DNA of 64,000 bases. Source: Bacteroidetes bacterium 46-16. Lineage in GTDB: Bacteria; Bacteroidota; Bacteroidia; Chitinophagales; Chitinophagaceae. This document shows positions 6,540-27,005 of this stretch, in pieces. The stretch covers positions 53,009 to 117,008 of the forward strand of contig MKUN01000041.1 in the NCBI GenBank assembly GCA_001897835.1, in the 5' to 3' direction. Position numbers and translations under genes: made by a program. The first letter of the stretch is position 1. Each line of letters starts with the position of its first letter. The notes below the pieces were generated by a model. The model saw only the letters and a program-made list of their open reading frames with translations. It was not told the origin of the DNA and did not search any database.

Positions 6540-7097
6540 ATGCAGAAAAGAAGTAAAGGCAGGCCGCCTTTTAGACCAAGATTACCACAGAACGAACATC
6601 GTCTCAACAGGGAAATTACAGCGCCTGAAGTGCGCGTGATAGGTGAAGGAATAGAACCGGGAGTATATCCTTTGGCACAGGCATTGCGAATGGCAGAGGA
6701 ACAGGAGGTAGACCTGGTTGAGATATCCCCTAAGGCAGTACCCCCCGTTTGCCGCATTATCGATTATAAGAAATTCCTCTACGAGAAGAAGAAGAAGGAT
6801 AAAGAACAAAAAGCAAAAGCAAAGCAATCTGAAGTAAAAGAGATTCGCTTTACGCCTAATACCGATGAGCATGATTTTGACTTCAAAGCCAAGCATGCCG
6901 AAAAATTCCTGAAGGAAGGAGATAAGGTAAAATGCTATGTACAGTTCAAGGGTCGCGCCATTATGTTCCAGGAACGTGGTGAGCTTTTACTCCTCAAATT
7001 CGCAGAAAGATTAGCTGAATATGGCTCCCTCGAATCAATGCCAAAAATGGAAGGGAAACGTATGCTGGCCATCTTCACGCCCAAAAAGAAAAAATAA
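6540..7097 (+). CDS. infC: Translation initiation factor IF-3
   Basis: 185 aa. IF-3 binds the 30S subunit, blocks premature 50S joining and checks start-codon pairing. The N-domain (LNREITAPEVRVIGEG, ALRMAEEQEVDLVEISP, PVCRIIDYKKF), the lysine-rich linker (EKKKKDKEQKAKAKQ) and the C-domain (KEIRFTPNTDEHDF, KVKCYVQFKGR) are all present. The start is AUG at 6540; unlike E. coli there is no AUU. The usual rpmI and rplT genes do not follow. Confidence 0.97.
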   Translation: MQKRSKGRPPFRPRLPQNEHRLNREITAPEVRVIGEGIEPGVYPLAQALRMAEEQEVDLVEISPKAVPPVCRIIDYKKFLYEKKKKDKEQKAKAKQSEVKEIRFTPNTDEHDFDFKAKHAEKFLKEGDKVKCYVQFKGRAIMFQERGELLLLKFAERLAEYGSLESMPKMEGKRMLAIFTPKKKK

Positions 7098-7164
7098 CAA
7101 TTATCTTCATTTGTTGTCTATTTGTTAATGACATCGATTTTCATTAACAAACTCAGGATTTTTA

Positions 7165-7244
7165 TACATTTGCATGTTCCCTCTAAAAAAGGGGGCAATT
7201 CAAAGACAATGCTGTAATTATCAATTTTTTACAGCTTTGTTTTT
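7165..7244 (+). ncRNA. Possible small RNA or infC-downstream transcription unit
   Basis: A -7-like box TACATTTG (7165-7172) is followed by a small C/G hairpin (CCCT...AGGG, 7179-7195). A perfect 7-bp stem with an 11-nt loop (7211-7217 with 7229-7235) then runs into a T-rich tract (7236-7244). Transcription from about 7178 would give an RNA near 65 nt. The last hairpin could simply be the infC terminator. No -33 TTG was found. No coding potential seen. Confidence 0.35.
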
Positions 7245-7273
7245 GCAACATATAGCAAATTGCCTTAGCATAA
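7243..7273 (+). promoter_or_regulatory. Promoter of the first 54-nt hairpin unit
   Basis: TTG (7243-7245), 20-nt spacer, TAGCATAA (7266-7273); the -7 box is a weak match. It sits 4 nt before repeat unit 1, and its TTG overlaps the T tract of the preceding hairpin. Confidence 0.35.
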
Positions 7274-7277
7274 AGAA

Positions 7278-7331
7278 GTTTTCATGGTGATAGGGTTTAT
7301 AGGGGCTGGCCTGTTCTCAGGCTGGCTTTTT
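7278..7331 (+). ncRNA. 54-nt hairpin unit, copy 1 (candidate small RNA)
   Basis: 53 of 54 bases equal copy 2 at 7423; the only difference is G versus A at position 9. The second half folds into a 10-bp hairpin (7306-7315 with 7320-7329 region, TTCT loop, some G-U pairs) leading into a T tract, as in an intrinsic terminator. A promoter-like TTG-N20-TAGCATAA lies just upstream. Alternative reading: ATG at 7284 opens a 35-codon frame (to 7391) for a hydrophobic peptide starting MVIGFIGAGLFSGWLF; copy 2 could make a similar peptide only from GTG. Not matched to a named RNA family. Confidence 0.5.
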
Positions 7332-7387
7332 CTTTTTAAACCATCCCTCATAAGAAAAAATTATATACAGTTTTACAAAAAACTATT

Positions 7388-7417
7388 TTGAAAAAAACGA
7401 ATCAACACTTAATTTTG
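7388..7417 (+). promoter_or_regulatory. Promoter of the second 54-nt hairpin unit
   Basis: TTG (7388-7390), 19-nt spacer, TAATTTTG (7410-7417): a full match to the Bacteroidota promoter consensus, 5 nt before repeat unit 2. Confidence 0.65.
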
Positions 7418-7422
7418 CATCA

Positions 7423-7476
7423 GTTTTCATAGTGATAGGGTTTATAGGGGCTGGCCTGTTCTCAGGCTGGCTTTTT
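7423..7476 (+). ncRNA. 54-nt hairpin unit, copy 2 (candidate small RNA)
   Basis: Second copy of the unit at 7278, 145 bp downstream. It has the same hairpin and ends in six T. The strong promoter (7388-7417) predicts a start within a few bases of the repeat's first base, so repeat boundaries and predicted transcript boundaries coincide. That fits a discrete small RNA of about 55 nt. Sequence between the copies (7332-7422) is unrelated AT-rich DNA. Confidence 0.55.
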
Positions 7477-7605
7477 TATTTTATTCCCGGCCACATTTGT
7501 TTACACAAGACCAATAAAGCATATTAAAAATGTATTGCATCCTGTGTATTTTGCCAATGTGGCTATCTCCTATTTTATCATTATTTTACACACAAAATTT
7601 TTCGA

Positions 7606-8685
7606 ATGCTGCGTGGCCCTGTATGCATACTTCTTTGTTTAGTTTCTTCTTTTTGTGCGATAGCCCAACCCCTGGCAGCATATGTAGATATCCAGAACCA
7701 GGTAATGGTATGGGATAAAGGCATGATCAGGAAGATAGACTACCTGCCCCCTGTGTTGATGAAAGTAGGCAGAAGCGCCATCCCCTACCTCGACAATTCA
7801 CGCGCCTTTAAAATATACTATGGCGGAGGCACTAAAGAAATAAATATTGGTTTTACGAATGCTTTTTTTGTGAGCGATAACCTGGTAGCCTACCTCAATG
7901 CAAAAGCCCTCAATGTATTTGACCGCGGCACTGCCAAACGCCTGACCAATATCTGCGATGAATATTATCTCGCCGATAGTGTATTGCTCTACCTCGACGG
8001 GCAACGCAGGGAATACCGCGTCTACTATGAGGGGCAAACTTACCAGATAGAAGGCTTTATACCCGACAGTACGCTACCTTCTATAAAAGTGAGCGACAAT
8101 ATCGTCGCCTTCGACAACTTTGCCGGGCTCTTCAGGATATTTTATCATGGTGCTGTAATTCCGCAGGAAGATTACCCGGTAAGCAGCTTCGATGCTGGGC
8201 GCAATACCGTGGCATATGTGGATGCAAACCGGCAATTCAAAATATTCCACAACGGGCAGAACTTTGTGGTCGAGGACTATCCCCCTCAAAGCTATACCGT
8301 AGGCGATAACCTGGTAGCATATGTCTCAAGTGACGGGTACTTTAAAATATTTTACCAGGATAGTATCCGCAACCTGGGCTTTTTTCAACCCATATACCAG
8401 GTGGGCGATAATGTAGTGGGCTATCGCGACCCCAGTGGCTACTTCAAAGCCTTTTATAAAGGTGACATCACCGACCTCGAGAATTATTACCCCGACAATT
8501 ATGTGATACAATATAACTCGATAGCCTATATCAATAAAGCGGGTACACTACGTATGTTCACCGAGGGCGAGGCTTACGATGTAACCAACGCTACCCTGAG
8601 CAACTGGGAGATGCATTATGACGTGCTGAAGTACCAGATAGGGCAAAACATCTTCCGCGTATTTTATAAAGGCAGGGACTACTAA
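7606..8685 (+). CDS. Secreted beta-repeat protein, function unknown
   Basis: 359 aa with a signal peptide (1-21, ending CAIAQ). The rest is built of about eight degenerate repeats of ~38-40 residues around the pattern V-DN-VAY-D-G-FKIFY-G---LE-Y-P (for example GDNLVAYVSSDGYFKIFYQD and GDNVVGYRDPSGYFKAFYKG), likely a beta-propeller. It has no T9SS tail or lipobox, so periplasmic or outer-membrane location is open. It converges with the NlpC/P60 gene, with stops overlapping by 4 bp. I recognise no named family. Confidence 0.8.
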   Translation: MLRGPVCILLCLVSSFCAIAQPLAAYVDIQNQVMVWDKGMIRKIDYLPPVLMKVGRSAIPYLDNSRAFKIYYGGGTKEINIGFTNAFFVSDNLVAYLNAKALNVFDRGTAKRLTNICDEYYLADSVLLYLDGQRREYRVYYEGQTYQIEGFIPDSTLPSIKVSDNIVAFDNFAGLFRIFYHGAVIPQEDYPVSSFDAGRNTVAYVDANRQFKIFHNGQNFVVEDYPPQSYTVGDNLVAYVSSDGYFKIFYQDSIRNLGFFQPIYQVGDNVVGYRDPSGYFKAFYKGDITDLENYYPDNYVIQYNSIAYINKAGTLRMFTEGEAYDVTNATLSNWEMHYDVLKYQIGQNIFRVFYKGRDY

Positions 8686-24410: not shown

Positions 24411-27005
24411 ATGAAAAGAATATCAATACTGCTTTGCTCCTTATTGCTGGCTCACAGCATTGCAGCACAGCCATGGATGCCTGTCAATAAAGGCCCTCAA
24501 AAACTCGATGATATCATTGCAGCCCACAAAGCACAAATAGCATTGGAACAGGGTGATGCGGAAGAGGAAAATGACAAAGATGGTAAAGCCGTTAAAGAAG
24601 CAAAAGACCATCTCTTTCAAAAATGGGCATGGTATCAAAGGCAGCACCTCGACAGGGATGGCTATATAGTACCTACGGCCCGGACATGGCAGGAATGTCA
24701 GAAATACATGGAAGCGCGTAAAGGCACTGCTGCAAAAGCAACCGCCAACCAGTCGCAGTGGGAATTTACCGGGCCCGAAACATCCAATGGCGGTGGCTAT
24801 TATGGCATAGGCCGCATCAATGTTGTTGCCTTTCACCCGAGCGACCCTAATACCTACTGGATAGGAAGTGCCGGCGGTGGCGCATGGAAAACTACCGACG
24901 ACGGGCAATCATGGACCCCGATGTATCACGACCTCATGGCCCTTGGTGTTGCAGATATAGATTACAATCCCCTTAACCCCAATACCATTTATCTCTGTAC
25001 CGGCGATCGCGATGCGGGCGACACCTACAGTATCGGTGTGATGAAATCGACCGATGGTGGGGCATCCTGGCAAAGTACAGGCTTGTCCTTTAACCTCTAT
25101 GATTATTTCCTCGCCAATACCCTCATCATCAATCCCGCTGATACCAATACTTTGCTGCTCGCCTCCGACTATGGTATATATCGCTCAACCGATGCAGGCG
25201 GCAACTGGACCAATGTCAAAAACGGTGATTTTAAAGAGATCGTTTACTGTCCCTCCAACCCCAGCGTGGCATATGCCGCAGGATCACAGGTATTCCGTAC
25301 GGCCGATGGCGGGCAGACATGGCAGCAGGTGACCAACGTATCGGGAGTGAACAGGGTGAGCATAGCTGTGACCGCAGTGGATCCTTCGATAGTGAAAGCC
25401 ATATTTTCAAGGGACGATAACAGTGGACTGAGAGGCATCTACAGTTCAAGCGATACCGGTCACAATTTCACCGAAGTATTCCATGTTTCCAACTGTTCCG
25501 ACAACCTGCTCAGCGGTGCCAAGATACCCGATGCAAGCACCTGTGGCGGCCAAGGATGGTATGATCTCTGTATCGCTATCGACCCCGCTGATGCGAACAA
25601 AGTAGTGATCGGCGGCATCAATACATGGTATTCTGCTGATGGCGGGGCGCACTGGCAATTATCCACGGAGTGGTATGATGATTTCACCCCACCCTTCGTA
25701 AGAACCGTCCATGCTGACAAACATTATTTGAAATATCATCCGCTGGTACCCGGCAAATTATTCGAGTGCTGCGACGGCGGCATTTATTCTACCAGCAATC
25801 CCATAAGCCTGTTCTGGAACGACCTCACCAATGGCCTTGGCATCACAGAGTTTTACCGCAATGCCGTAGCCGATAACAGCGCTTACGTGCTTGGCGGCTC
25901 GCAGGACAATGGCACCAAGAGGGTGCGTCCCGATGGCACTACCCAGGAACTCACAGGTGGCGATGGGATGAACTGCGAGATCGACTATACCGACTCCCTT
26001 ACATTTTATACATCATACCAGTTGGGCAGCGTTGTGCGCACCAACGATGGCGGGCAGGTATTTTTGAGCATTTCCGACAATATACCCGGCCAGCCCGGGG
26101 GCAGTTGGATCACCCCTTTTTGTATCAGTCCGCAGGATCATAATGTGATCATAGCTGGTTATGATATGGTCTATTACTCCAATGATATGGGCGGGAGCTG
26201 GCTGACCATCTCGAACGAATTCCAACCTGGCCACACTATTGACAGGCTCGCACTGGCCAATACCGATGCTAACTATATTTACGCACTGGTGAACAACAAA
26301 CTGTACTATACCAATAACCTCGCCACTTCATGGGATTCGATACCCGTACCCTACCCGGGCTGGATATCCGATATACTTGTGGATCCGCTCGATGCTGCAC
26401 ACTTATGGGTAACCTTCAGCGGTTATGATACGGTAAAGGTGGCCGACTACTGGCCTTCGCATGGTGGCTGGGCCAATCATAGCGAACTGCTGCCTAACGT
26501 ACCTGCATCATGTATCATCATCGACACCTCGAGCCAGACAAAATATATCGGTACCGACCTCGGCGTCTTCTACCGTGATGTGAACATGAACCAATGGGGG
26601 CCTTATAATACCAATCTTCCCTTTGTACACGTTTCCGACCTGGGTATTAATTACAGCACATATGAGATATGGGCCGCCACTTATGGCAGGGGCATGTGGC
26701 ATTCGCCGAAGAATGAGCACCCTACCGGCATCTCCATAGTGCCTTTACAGGCCGATGTGCTGACAGTGAGCCCCAACCCCAATAAAGGCAGCTTCACAGT
26801 AAGTACGGGTAAGAGCACATTCAGGAACAAAAAAGCTGCTGCAAGGCTGCTTGACGCTAACGGCAGGACCGTGTGGCACGACGATGTGCAGTTTGATGCA
26901 AATGGACACATCAATGTGCAGGTGGGCAACCTTGCTAAAGGCAGGTATATATTTGAAGTATCGGGTAAAGACGTGCTGGCAAGGGCTAATGTAGTGATAT
27001 ACTAA
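24411..27005 (+). CDS. T9SS type A protein with sortilin/BNR-like propeller
   Basis: 864 aa with a signal peptide (ending HSIAAQ). Many Asp-box motifs (S-x-D-x-G-x-x-W: STDGGASWQS, STDAGGNWTNV, TADGGQTWQQV, SADGGAHWQL) mark a VPS10/sialidase-like beta-propeller of ten or more blades over ~100-760. The C-terminus is a type A sorting tail (TVSPNPNKGSFTVSTG ... GNLAKGRYIFEVSG). Such proteins include glycan- or protein-binding surface factors; catalytic activity is not evident. Confidence 0.9.
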   Translation: MKRISILLCSLLLAHSIAAQPWMPVNKGPQKLDDIIAAHKAQIALEQGDAEEENDKDGKAVKEAKDHLFQKWAWYQRQHLDRDGYIVPTARTWQECQKYMEARKGTAAKATANQSQWEFTGPETSNGGGYYGIGRINVVAFHPSDPNTYWIGSAGGGAWKTTDDGQSWTPMYHDLMALGVADIDYNPLNPNTIYLCTGDRDAGDTYSIGVMKSTDGGASWQSTGLSFNLYDYFLANTLIINPADTNTLLLASDYGIYRSTDAGGNWTNVKNGDFKEIVYCPSNPSVAYAAGSQVFRTADGGQTWQQVTNVSGVNRVSIAVTAVDPSIVKAIFSRDDNSGLRGIYSSSDTGHNFTEVFHVSNCSDNLLSGAKIPDASTCGGQGWYDLCIAIDPADANKVVIGGINTWYSADGGAHWQLSTEWYDDFTPPFVRTVHADKHYLKYHPLVPGKLFECCDGGIYSTSNPISLFWNDLTNGLGITEFYRNAVADNSAYVLGGSQDNGTKRVRPDGTTQELTGGDGMNCEIDYTDSLTFYTSYQLGSVVRTNDGGQVFLSISDNIPGQPGGSWITPFCISPQDHNVIIAGYDMVYYSNDMGGSWLTISNEFQPGHTIDRLALANTDANYIYALVNNKLYYTNNLATSWDSIPVPYPGWISDILVDPLDAAHLWVTFSGYDTVKVADYWPSHGGWANHSELLPNVPASCIIIDTSSQTKYIGTDLGVFYRDVNMNQWGPYNTNLPFVHVSDLGINYSTYEIWAATYGRGMWHSPKNEHPTGISIVPLQADVLTVSPNPNKGSFTVSTGKSTFRNKKAAARLLDANGRTVWHDDVQFDANGHINVQVGNLAKGRYIFEVSGKDVLARANVVIY

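Follow-up and report, generated by a model that had tools for sequence, protein, structure and literature searches.

The window analysed here is a 64,000-nt stretch of a contig from Bacteroidetes bacterium 46-16 (Chitinophagaceae). Its interval 7097-7606, on the 3′ side of infC, holds two tandem copies of a 54-nt unit (Table 1), in a place that rpmI and rplT usually occupy; the second unit lies ~130 nt upstream of a gene for a beta-propeller protein. The two copies had been described in the initial annotation as nearly identical, and indeed they agree at 53 of 54 positions, the sole difference being a G at 7286 in unit 1 and an A at 7431 in unit 2; extending the comparison to 75 nt lowers the identity to 88%. 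The hairpin and T tract attributed to each copy were likewise recovered, as 13-pair hairpins at 7301-7330 and 7446-7475, and the folds of the units have z-scores of -2.4 to -3.2. The core pattern occurs twice in the window when up to 3 mismatches are allowed, and never in 100 shuffles. An Rfam scan of the window at the gathering threshold returned no match.

Table 1. Features of the two units and of their locus (positions in the window).
Feature	Position	Strand	Basis
infC (initiation factor IF-3), upstream neighbour in conserved locus	6540..7097	+	Pfam IF3_N and IF3_C; synteny
Unit 1, weak and tentative -7 candidate CAGCTTTG, 5/6 match, 43 nt before CAT	7232..7239	+	motif match; position in family
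Unit 1, second -7 candidate TGTTTTTG, 5/6 match, 37 nt before CAT	7238..7245	+	motif match
Copy-1 leader motif TTAGCATAAAGAAG, TA(A)AGAWG directly before TTTTCAT	7265..7278	+	occurrence in family
Unit 1 (CATGG type), small-RNA body, 54 nt	7278..7331	+	repeat comparison and family members
Unit 1, conserved single-stranded 5′ region GTTTTCATGGTGATAGGGTTTATA, putative seed	7278..7301	+	conservation; unpaired in centroid fold
Unit 1, intrinsic terminator: stem 7305-7313/7318-7326 with G-U/A-U extension, T tract	7301..7337	+	fold, covariation
Unit 2, promoter -33 element TTTG	7387..7390	+	sequence reading
Unit 2, promoter -7 element TAATTTTG	7410..7417	+	motif match; spacing common to CATA units
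Unit 2 (CATAG type), small-RNA body, 54 nt	7423..7476	+	repeat comparison
Unit 2, conserved 5′ region GTTTTCATAGTGATAGGGTTTATA, putative seed	7423..7446	+	fold and conservation
Unit 2, intrinsic terminator	7446..7482	+	fold, covariation
10-bladed beta-propeller protein, downstream neighbour in conserved locus	7606..8685	+	Pfam PF21734; synteny

The pair is part of a dispersed family, a point that the initial annotation had missed. A covariance model of 21 units (alignment A1, which holds 21 of the 28 units of the genus after exclusion of identical rows and of the divergent L047 and L048) gave 11 matches in the genome carrying the window (4.36 Mb, 53 contigs), where further copies were also found by DNA search. 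All five genomes of the genus had matches, 3 to 11 apiece, including a few partial ones. Within the Chitinophagaceae, matches at E ≤ 0.01 occurred in 82 of 147 genomes, many of them weak (~24-30 bits, often covering model positions 22/27-56) and set aside for their resemblance to generic terminators; the genome count was therefore restricted to matches of at least 45 bits, which by our own count from the listed places occur in 28 of the 147. Two loci returned by the covariance search (L079 and L080) contained no unit on reading. A 21-nt pattern was found in at least 116 stretches of genome contigs, and the 80 matches listed came from Taibaiella, Flavipsychrobacter, Edaphocola, many Bacteroidetes and Chitinophagaceae MAGs and one Mucilaginibacter, Taibaiella and Flavipsychrobacter being assigned by NCBI to the Chitinophagaceae. 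A few listed MAGs are titled as Azovibrio, Phycisphaerales or Bacteroides sp., which we take for binning or naming errors; the family looks scattered across a single group whose members are mostly environmental. In Mucilaginibacter pineti (L159), outside the Chitinophagaceae, there is one unit with a different hairpin, a possible transfer. Phage records gave no match, plasmid records gave 5 chance-like matches at E ~4, and a viral contig (L197) carrying the 19-nt core without a hairpin was treated as a chance occurrence.

The 11 copies of the window's genome lie in varied gene contexts and in either orientation relative to their neighbours. ArdC or SSB genes are found within ~3.5 kb of three of them and an AIPR gene next to one, which suggests that the unit spread with mobile elements. 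Among 85 non-redundant loci 25 are tandem, infC being adjacent in all 25, and 43 of the 85 are no more than 1.5 kb away from infC, thrS or the propeller gene. The arrangement infC - unit - unit - propeller is, as we read it, the old locus, with paralogues elsewhere. Regions on three contigs of the window's genome (C28, C10 and C7; loci L022, L023 and L028) look mobile and contain ArdC genes and a unit each, with an SSB gene alongside ArdC in L022 and L028; the C7 copy of the unit is diverged.

The two copies differ in how they are likely to be transcribed. A promoter ending 4-5 nt before each unit had been proposed at the outset. For copy 2 this holds, since TTTG-N19-TAATTTTG, the textbook Bacteroidota form, ends 5 nt upstream of the unit; for copy 1 it does not, as no TAnnTTTG match of at least 5/6 is present there and the best matches further upstream, CAGCTTTG and TGTTTTTG, reach only 5/6 each. 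The same division runs through the family. In 42 of 67 CATA units a TAnnTTTG match (≥5/6) ends exactly 10 nt before CAT, compared with a mean of 1.5 over all positions. The leader motif TA(A)AGAWG is found in 48 of 102 CATG units and in one of the 67 CATA units, and these 49 units show 34 perfect TAnnTTTG motifs in the interval 41-60 nt upstream of CAT, as against none in the interval 6-12 nt; the remaining 54 CATG units have 10 perfect motifs at 6-12 nt. Given these distant motifs in units of its type, copy 1 probably gives rise to an RNA extended by a leader of some 30-50 nt, from a promoter that is probably located ~43 nt before its CAT, and the tandem loci would thus probably produce one short RNA and one leadered RNA. 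A leader hairpin in copy-1-type units was also considered and dropped as too weak (mean z of -0.84 over the 49 units, compared with -0.43 for a control stretch); small, sequence-divergent leader hairpins are visible in L065, L067, L068, L069, L118, L154 and others, and are statistically weak over the 49.

Within the units, the unpaired 5′ core UGAUAGGGUUUAUA is constant and the hairpin is variable, with compensatory changes. The set of 169 units was chosen by an exact 19-nt core, so that constancy of the core within it is by construction; similarity searches show the constancy independently. In an alignment of 51 distinct in-register hairpins (A4; 51 of 62, the other 11 being out of register, truncated (one, lacking the T tract) or viral), 98.5% of the stem cells pair, as against 86.2% in shuffles, and pairings slid out of register are only 17-51% paired. 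Substitutions of compensatory rather than codon type had been named as the test between an RNA and a peptide, and the outcome was for RNA: 54 cells are changed on both sides of the stem, compared with a shuffle mean of 10.6, with none of 500 shuffles as high and slid controls at 1-14. The number of pairs showing a double change, 6 of 9, was equalled by 150 of the 500 shuffles. At one locus (L078 = L108) the hairpin is wholly replaced behind an unchanged 5′ end. The proposal that the repeats are duplicated small-RNA genes is thus supported by compensatory stem changes, by a terminator with a conserved 5′ end, and by the lack of a conserved peptide.

The peptide in question was a 35-aa membrane peptide (MVIGFIGAGLFSGW...) with copy 1 as its coding copy. 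The TA(A)AGAWG motif directly before UUUUCAUG, with its strong bias to CATG units, could be a ribosome-binding context, and the first codons are invariant in the unit set, a constancy that exact-core selection imposes. This proposal did not stand, however: in the 102 CATG units the frame is stopped after residue 10, 11 or 13 in 10 and frameshifted in 3, there is no common stop, the variation tracks the stem with no concentration at third codon positions, and the terminator falls within the frame. Neither a conserved frame with a stop nor codon-type substitutions, as a short peptide gene would have, were found, and we consider a coding function very improbable. The units could instead be leaders whose terminators control the next gene in cis, be it the propeller gene or others. 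The position of unit 2 before the propeller gene, the conserved order of infC, units and propeller, and a copy (L005) directly upstream of an ORF whose ribosome site looks good would suit such an attenuator, but the L024 unit is antisense between two genes and the L022 unit faces a convergent gene, so that we rate this as unlikely. Even less credible, and the most improbable reading considered, is a mobile or repetitive DNA element of the REP kind with no RNA gene. It would account for the dispersed copies, for the vicinity of ArdC or SSB genes in three of them and for contigs that terminate at units, but not for promoters at fixed spacing, a one-sided T tract, stems with compensatory changes and an ancestral locus that is conserved, all of which would be unexpected. 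By contrast, what characterizes small-RNA genes in general (an own promoter, which for copy 1 is weak in the window, a terminator, conserved structure and no conserved peptide) was found, and we are highly confident that the units form a small-RNA family, the term small-RNA gene being used here because of their anatomy and conservation.

The 5′ end of the units is more variable than the window pair would indicate. TTTTCAT is present in 150 of the 169 exact-core units, part of which were fetched with a pattern that requires TTCAT. In the genome carrying the window the full TTTTCAT is found in just 3 of the 11 copies, namely the window pair and the copy on C38; four are shortened to TTCAT (C6, C10, C23 and C28) and one to TCAT (C4:672), and three have no matching CAT (C16, C4:1169 and C7). 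Where a promoter motif can be seen in the shortened units, it stops 5-6 nt short of CAT, and in the C16 copy it stops 4 nt short of TGATAGGG. This closer promoter makes it probable that the RNAs of the shortened copies start later, maybe after the UUUU.

The closest likeness among described RNAs is to FopS, reported as a Bacteroidaceae family of paralogous sRNAs (Rfam RF04319; PMC11697453). According to that source, FopS has 14 members in B. thetaiotaomicron, its 5′ seed pairs with the translation starts of susC mRNAs and blocks initiation, and the RRM protein RbpB is an antagonist in the system, FopS being an RRM ligand that nonetheless acts by base pairing (PMC11697453). At relaxed thresholds the RF04319 model aligned end to end with both units, at 20.3 and 19.0 bits against a gathering threshold of 56, and what FopS and the units have in common is UUUUCAUGGUnnUAG (UUUUCAURGUnnUAG) at the 5′ end plus the terminator. 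The consensus alignment score of units and FopS exceeded all 2000 shuffles (z 4.1), FopS having been picked after the search. With strict filters the FopS model gave no match at E ≤ 0.01 in the window's genome, and across the phylum 5 of 395 genomes had a match over its cut-off, each of them belonging to family f11 or f12. FopS-model matches in genomes G239 and G513 were rejected; on reading, they lie antisense to gene starts (G513 by eye). Like FopS, the units are multicopy, begin in the window pair with a single-stranded (G)UUUUCAURGU showing the same A/G variation, have the intrinsic terminator as their only hairpin and, in CATA copies, a TAnnTTTG promoter a few nucleotides upstream; an RRM protein is also encoded in the genome, RbpB-type binding being putative here. 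Unlike FopS, the window units continue after UUUUCAURGU, the stretch common to them and to the FopS R1′ seed, with GAUAGGGUUUAUAGGGG instead of AUUAGAUUUAAGGUUAA, the remainder having diverged, and 8 of the 11 copies of their genome lack the full UUUUCAU. Further differences are the sub-threshold score, the tandem arrangement at infC with probably a long-leader and a short isoform, and the many dispersed copies with a shortened 5′ end. On sequence grounds the units are therefore best called FopS-like, not FopS. No SusC-type transporter scored over the cut-off in the window's genome, where the FopS target class thus seems to be absent, and the targets would therefore differ from those of FopS.

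GibS (Rfam RF04182) is another Bacteroidota sRNA whose seed targets translation starts, and, being longer than FopS, it loosely resembles copy 1 (PMC7366714). The units score only 14.7-16.7 bits with its model, against a threshold of 115, and GibS is described as a single sRNA, with a second seed, R2 (PMC7366714).

Other Chitinophagaceae contain FopS-like types, named here B, B′ and C, that consist of UUUUCAUAGGAUA... and a terminator, stand in tandem arrays and have canonical promoters in many copies. Type B starts UUUUCAUAGGAUAAGGUUUAAUGGUUAAUGG..., and its 21-nt core is exact in at least 16 of the 147 genomes (reversed cores occurred 0-4 times per genome at up to 3 mismatches). Beyond the first ~12 nt the sequence of these types differs from that of the window units. 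A profile of types B, B′ and C plus FopS gave no match to the window units at E ≤ 10; in another run they were the top match of the window, at E 4.6. With no significant match by profile, homology between the units and the FopS-like types is suggested by the common 5′ end and is not proven, and the related types hint at a wider class. One Chitinophagaceae genome has four C-type units in tandem at a spacing of exactly 194 bp (L318, G109:C1:4553500-4558500), and in L330 and L327 there are tandem rows of mixed types, B′ then B. A 21-mer, TTTTCATAGGGTACGGATTAA, recurs in many of the listed genomes of the family, usually once, and is probably part of a conserved gene rather than a unit.

How might such RNAs act? 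Each unit would be a gene of its own, encoding a small regulatory RNA of ~55-60 nt, or probably ~90 nt with its leader in the case of copy 1, in which a conserved unpaired 5′ end (predicted start at GUUUUCAUAG) precedes the intrinsic terminator. The 5′ end of the window units, GUUUUCAURG, is antisense to a translation start CYAUGAAAAC, and the reverse complement of the unit 1 5′ region GTTTTCATGGTGATAGGGTTTATA includes CCATGAAAAC. The RNA may thus act in trans: by pairing around the start codon of mRNAs that open with AUG-AAA-A, it would block the ribosome at initiation, a mode of action demonstrated for FopS in B. thetaiotaomicron. Bacteroidota reportedly have no Shine-Dalgarno sites, which would make the start codon a natural target. 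In sequence sampled from the window's genome, ATGAAAA stands at 17 of 186 ORF starts (9.1%), a sample enriched for TonB-type genes, as compared with 1.05% of all ATGs. Across the phylum, near-matches to the window seed were antisense to gene starts at 14 of 28 loci, as against 5 of 30 in a control with a shuffled tail (p 0.007 by Fisher's test, 0.026 with only CAT-bearing matches; a single shuffle control, with 30 loci fetched per search from 143 and 93 matching genomes and 2 true units removed from the first). Weak matches to the B/FopS profile in distant genomes were antisense to gene starts at 13 of 18 loci (L365-L383 minus one true unit; own count, without control). Duplex energies at the 186 starts surpassed those of shuffles when the CATG form was used (z -3.5); the CATA form showed no such advantage (z 0.1). 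A search for an extended target gave 17 near-complements of AACCCTATCACYATGAAAA in the 5 genus genomes, compared with 19 for the reversed control (sRNA copies excluded); of these 17, no more than 4 or 5 were plausible starts. The genome carrying the window encodes one RRM_1 protein, of 124 aa and with a Gly-rich tail. We infer transcription, start-codon targeting, repression and any role of this single RRM protein. The full statement, a trans-acting sRNA family that pairs with AUGAAAA starts through its 5′ UUUUCAU and blocks initiation, is one that we lean towards by a little; our confidence in it was lowered slightly because most copies in the window's genome lack the full UUUUCAU. In L384 (G000:C46, ~26523-26546) the start region of a 55-aa ORF with a Cys/Gly tail, resembling a RiPP precursor, is complementary to the FopS-like profile. 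Three profile matches in L403 (G333:C1:1618413, 1618645 and 1618877) are 232 bp apart, and the one that was read overlaps, in antisense, the start of a small lipoprotein-like ORF.

In another reading, the part of the small RNA that does the work would be the constant core UGAUAGGGUUUAUAGGGG and not UUUUCAU: the RNA could be a protein sponge, its two AUAGGG motifs being possibly suited to an RRM protein, or its core could pair with other targets. That the core (UGAUAGGG) is kept even in copies that lack UUUUCAU (C16 and the relatives L044 and L050), that conservation extends well past a seed of 7-10 nt, that no long start-region target was found in the 5 genus genomes and that one RRM protein is present would all fit such a function. 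However, the related types B, B′ and C have lost the AUAGGG doublet and retained UUUUCAU, and FopS, although an RRM ligand, acts by base pairing (PMC11697453). We therefore regard action through the core as possible but rather doubtful.

Start-codon blocking remains the likeliest mechanism for what we interpret as a new FopS-like variant in the Chitinophagaceae. Searches of open-licence literature turned up no description of such a multicopy sRNA family outside Bacteroides. We tentatively raise the idea, itself somewhat improbable, that FopS belongs, as a single branch, to a class of multicopy sRNAs found throughout the Bacteroidota, in which the first 20-40 nt would be antisense to a generic start without a Shine-Dalgarno site (AACC-UUAUCCUAUGAAAA-like), with a variant in each lineage, as a kind of 'anti-start' dial. 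If true, the class would tune the translation of many secreted and envelope proteins beginning with AUG-AAA. A FopS-like family in the Chitinophagaceae, having an old tandem locus at infC and dispersed paralogues of which some lie near mobile genes, would point to control by start-codon-directed sRNAs as a general feature of Bacteroidota, and it gives a defined, testable prediction in cultivable bacteria, namely which starts are blocked.
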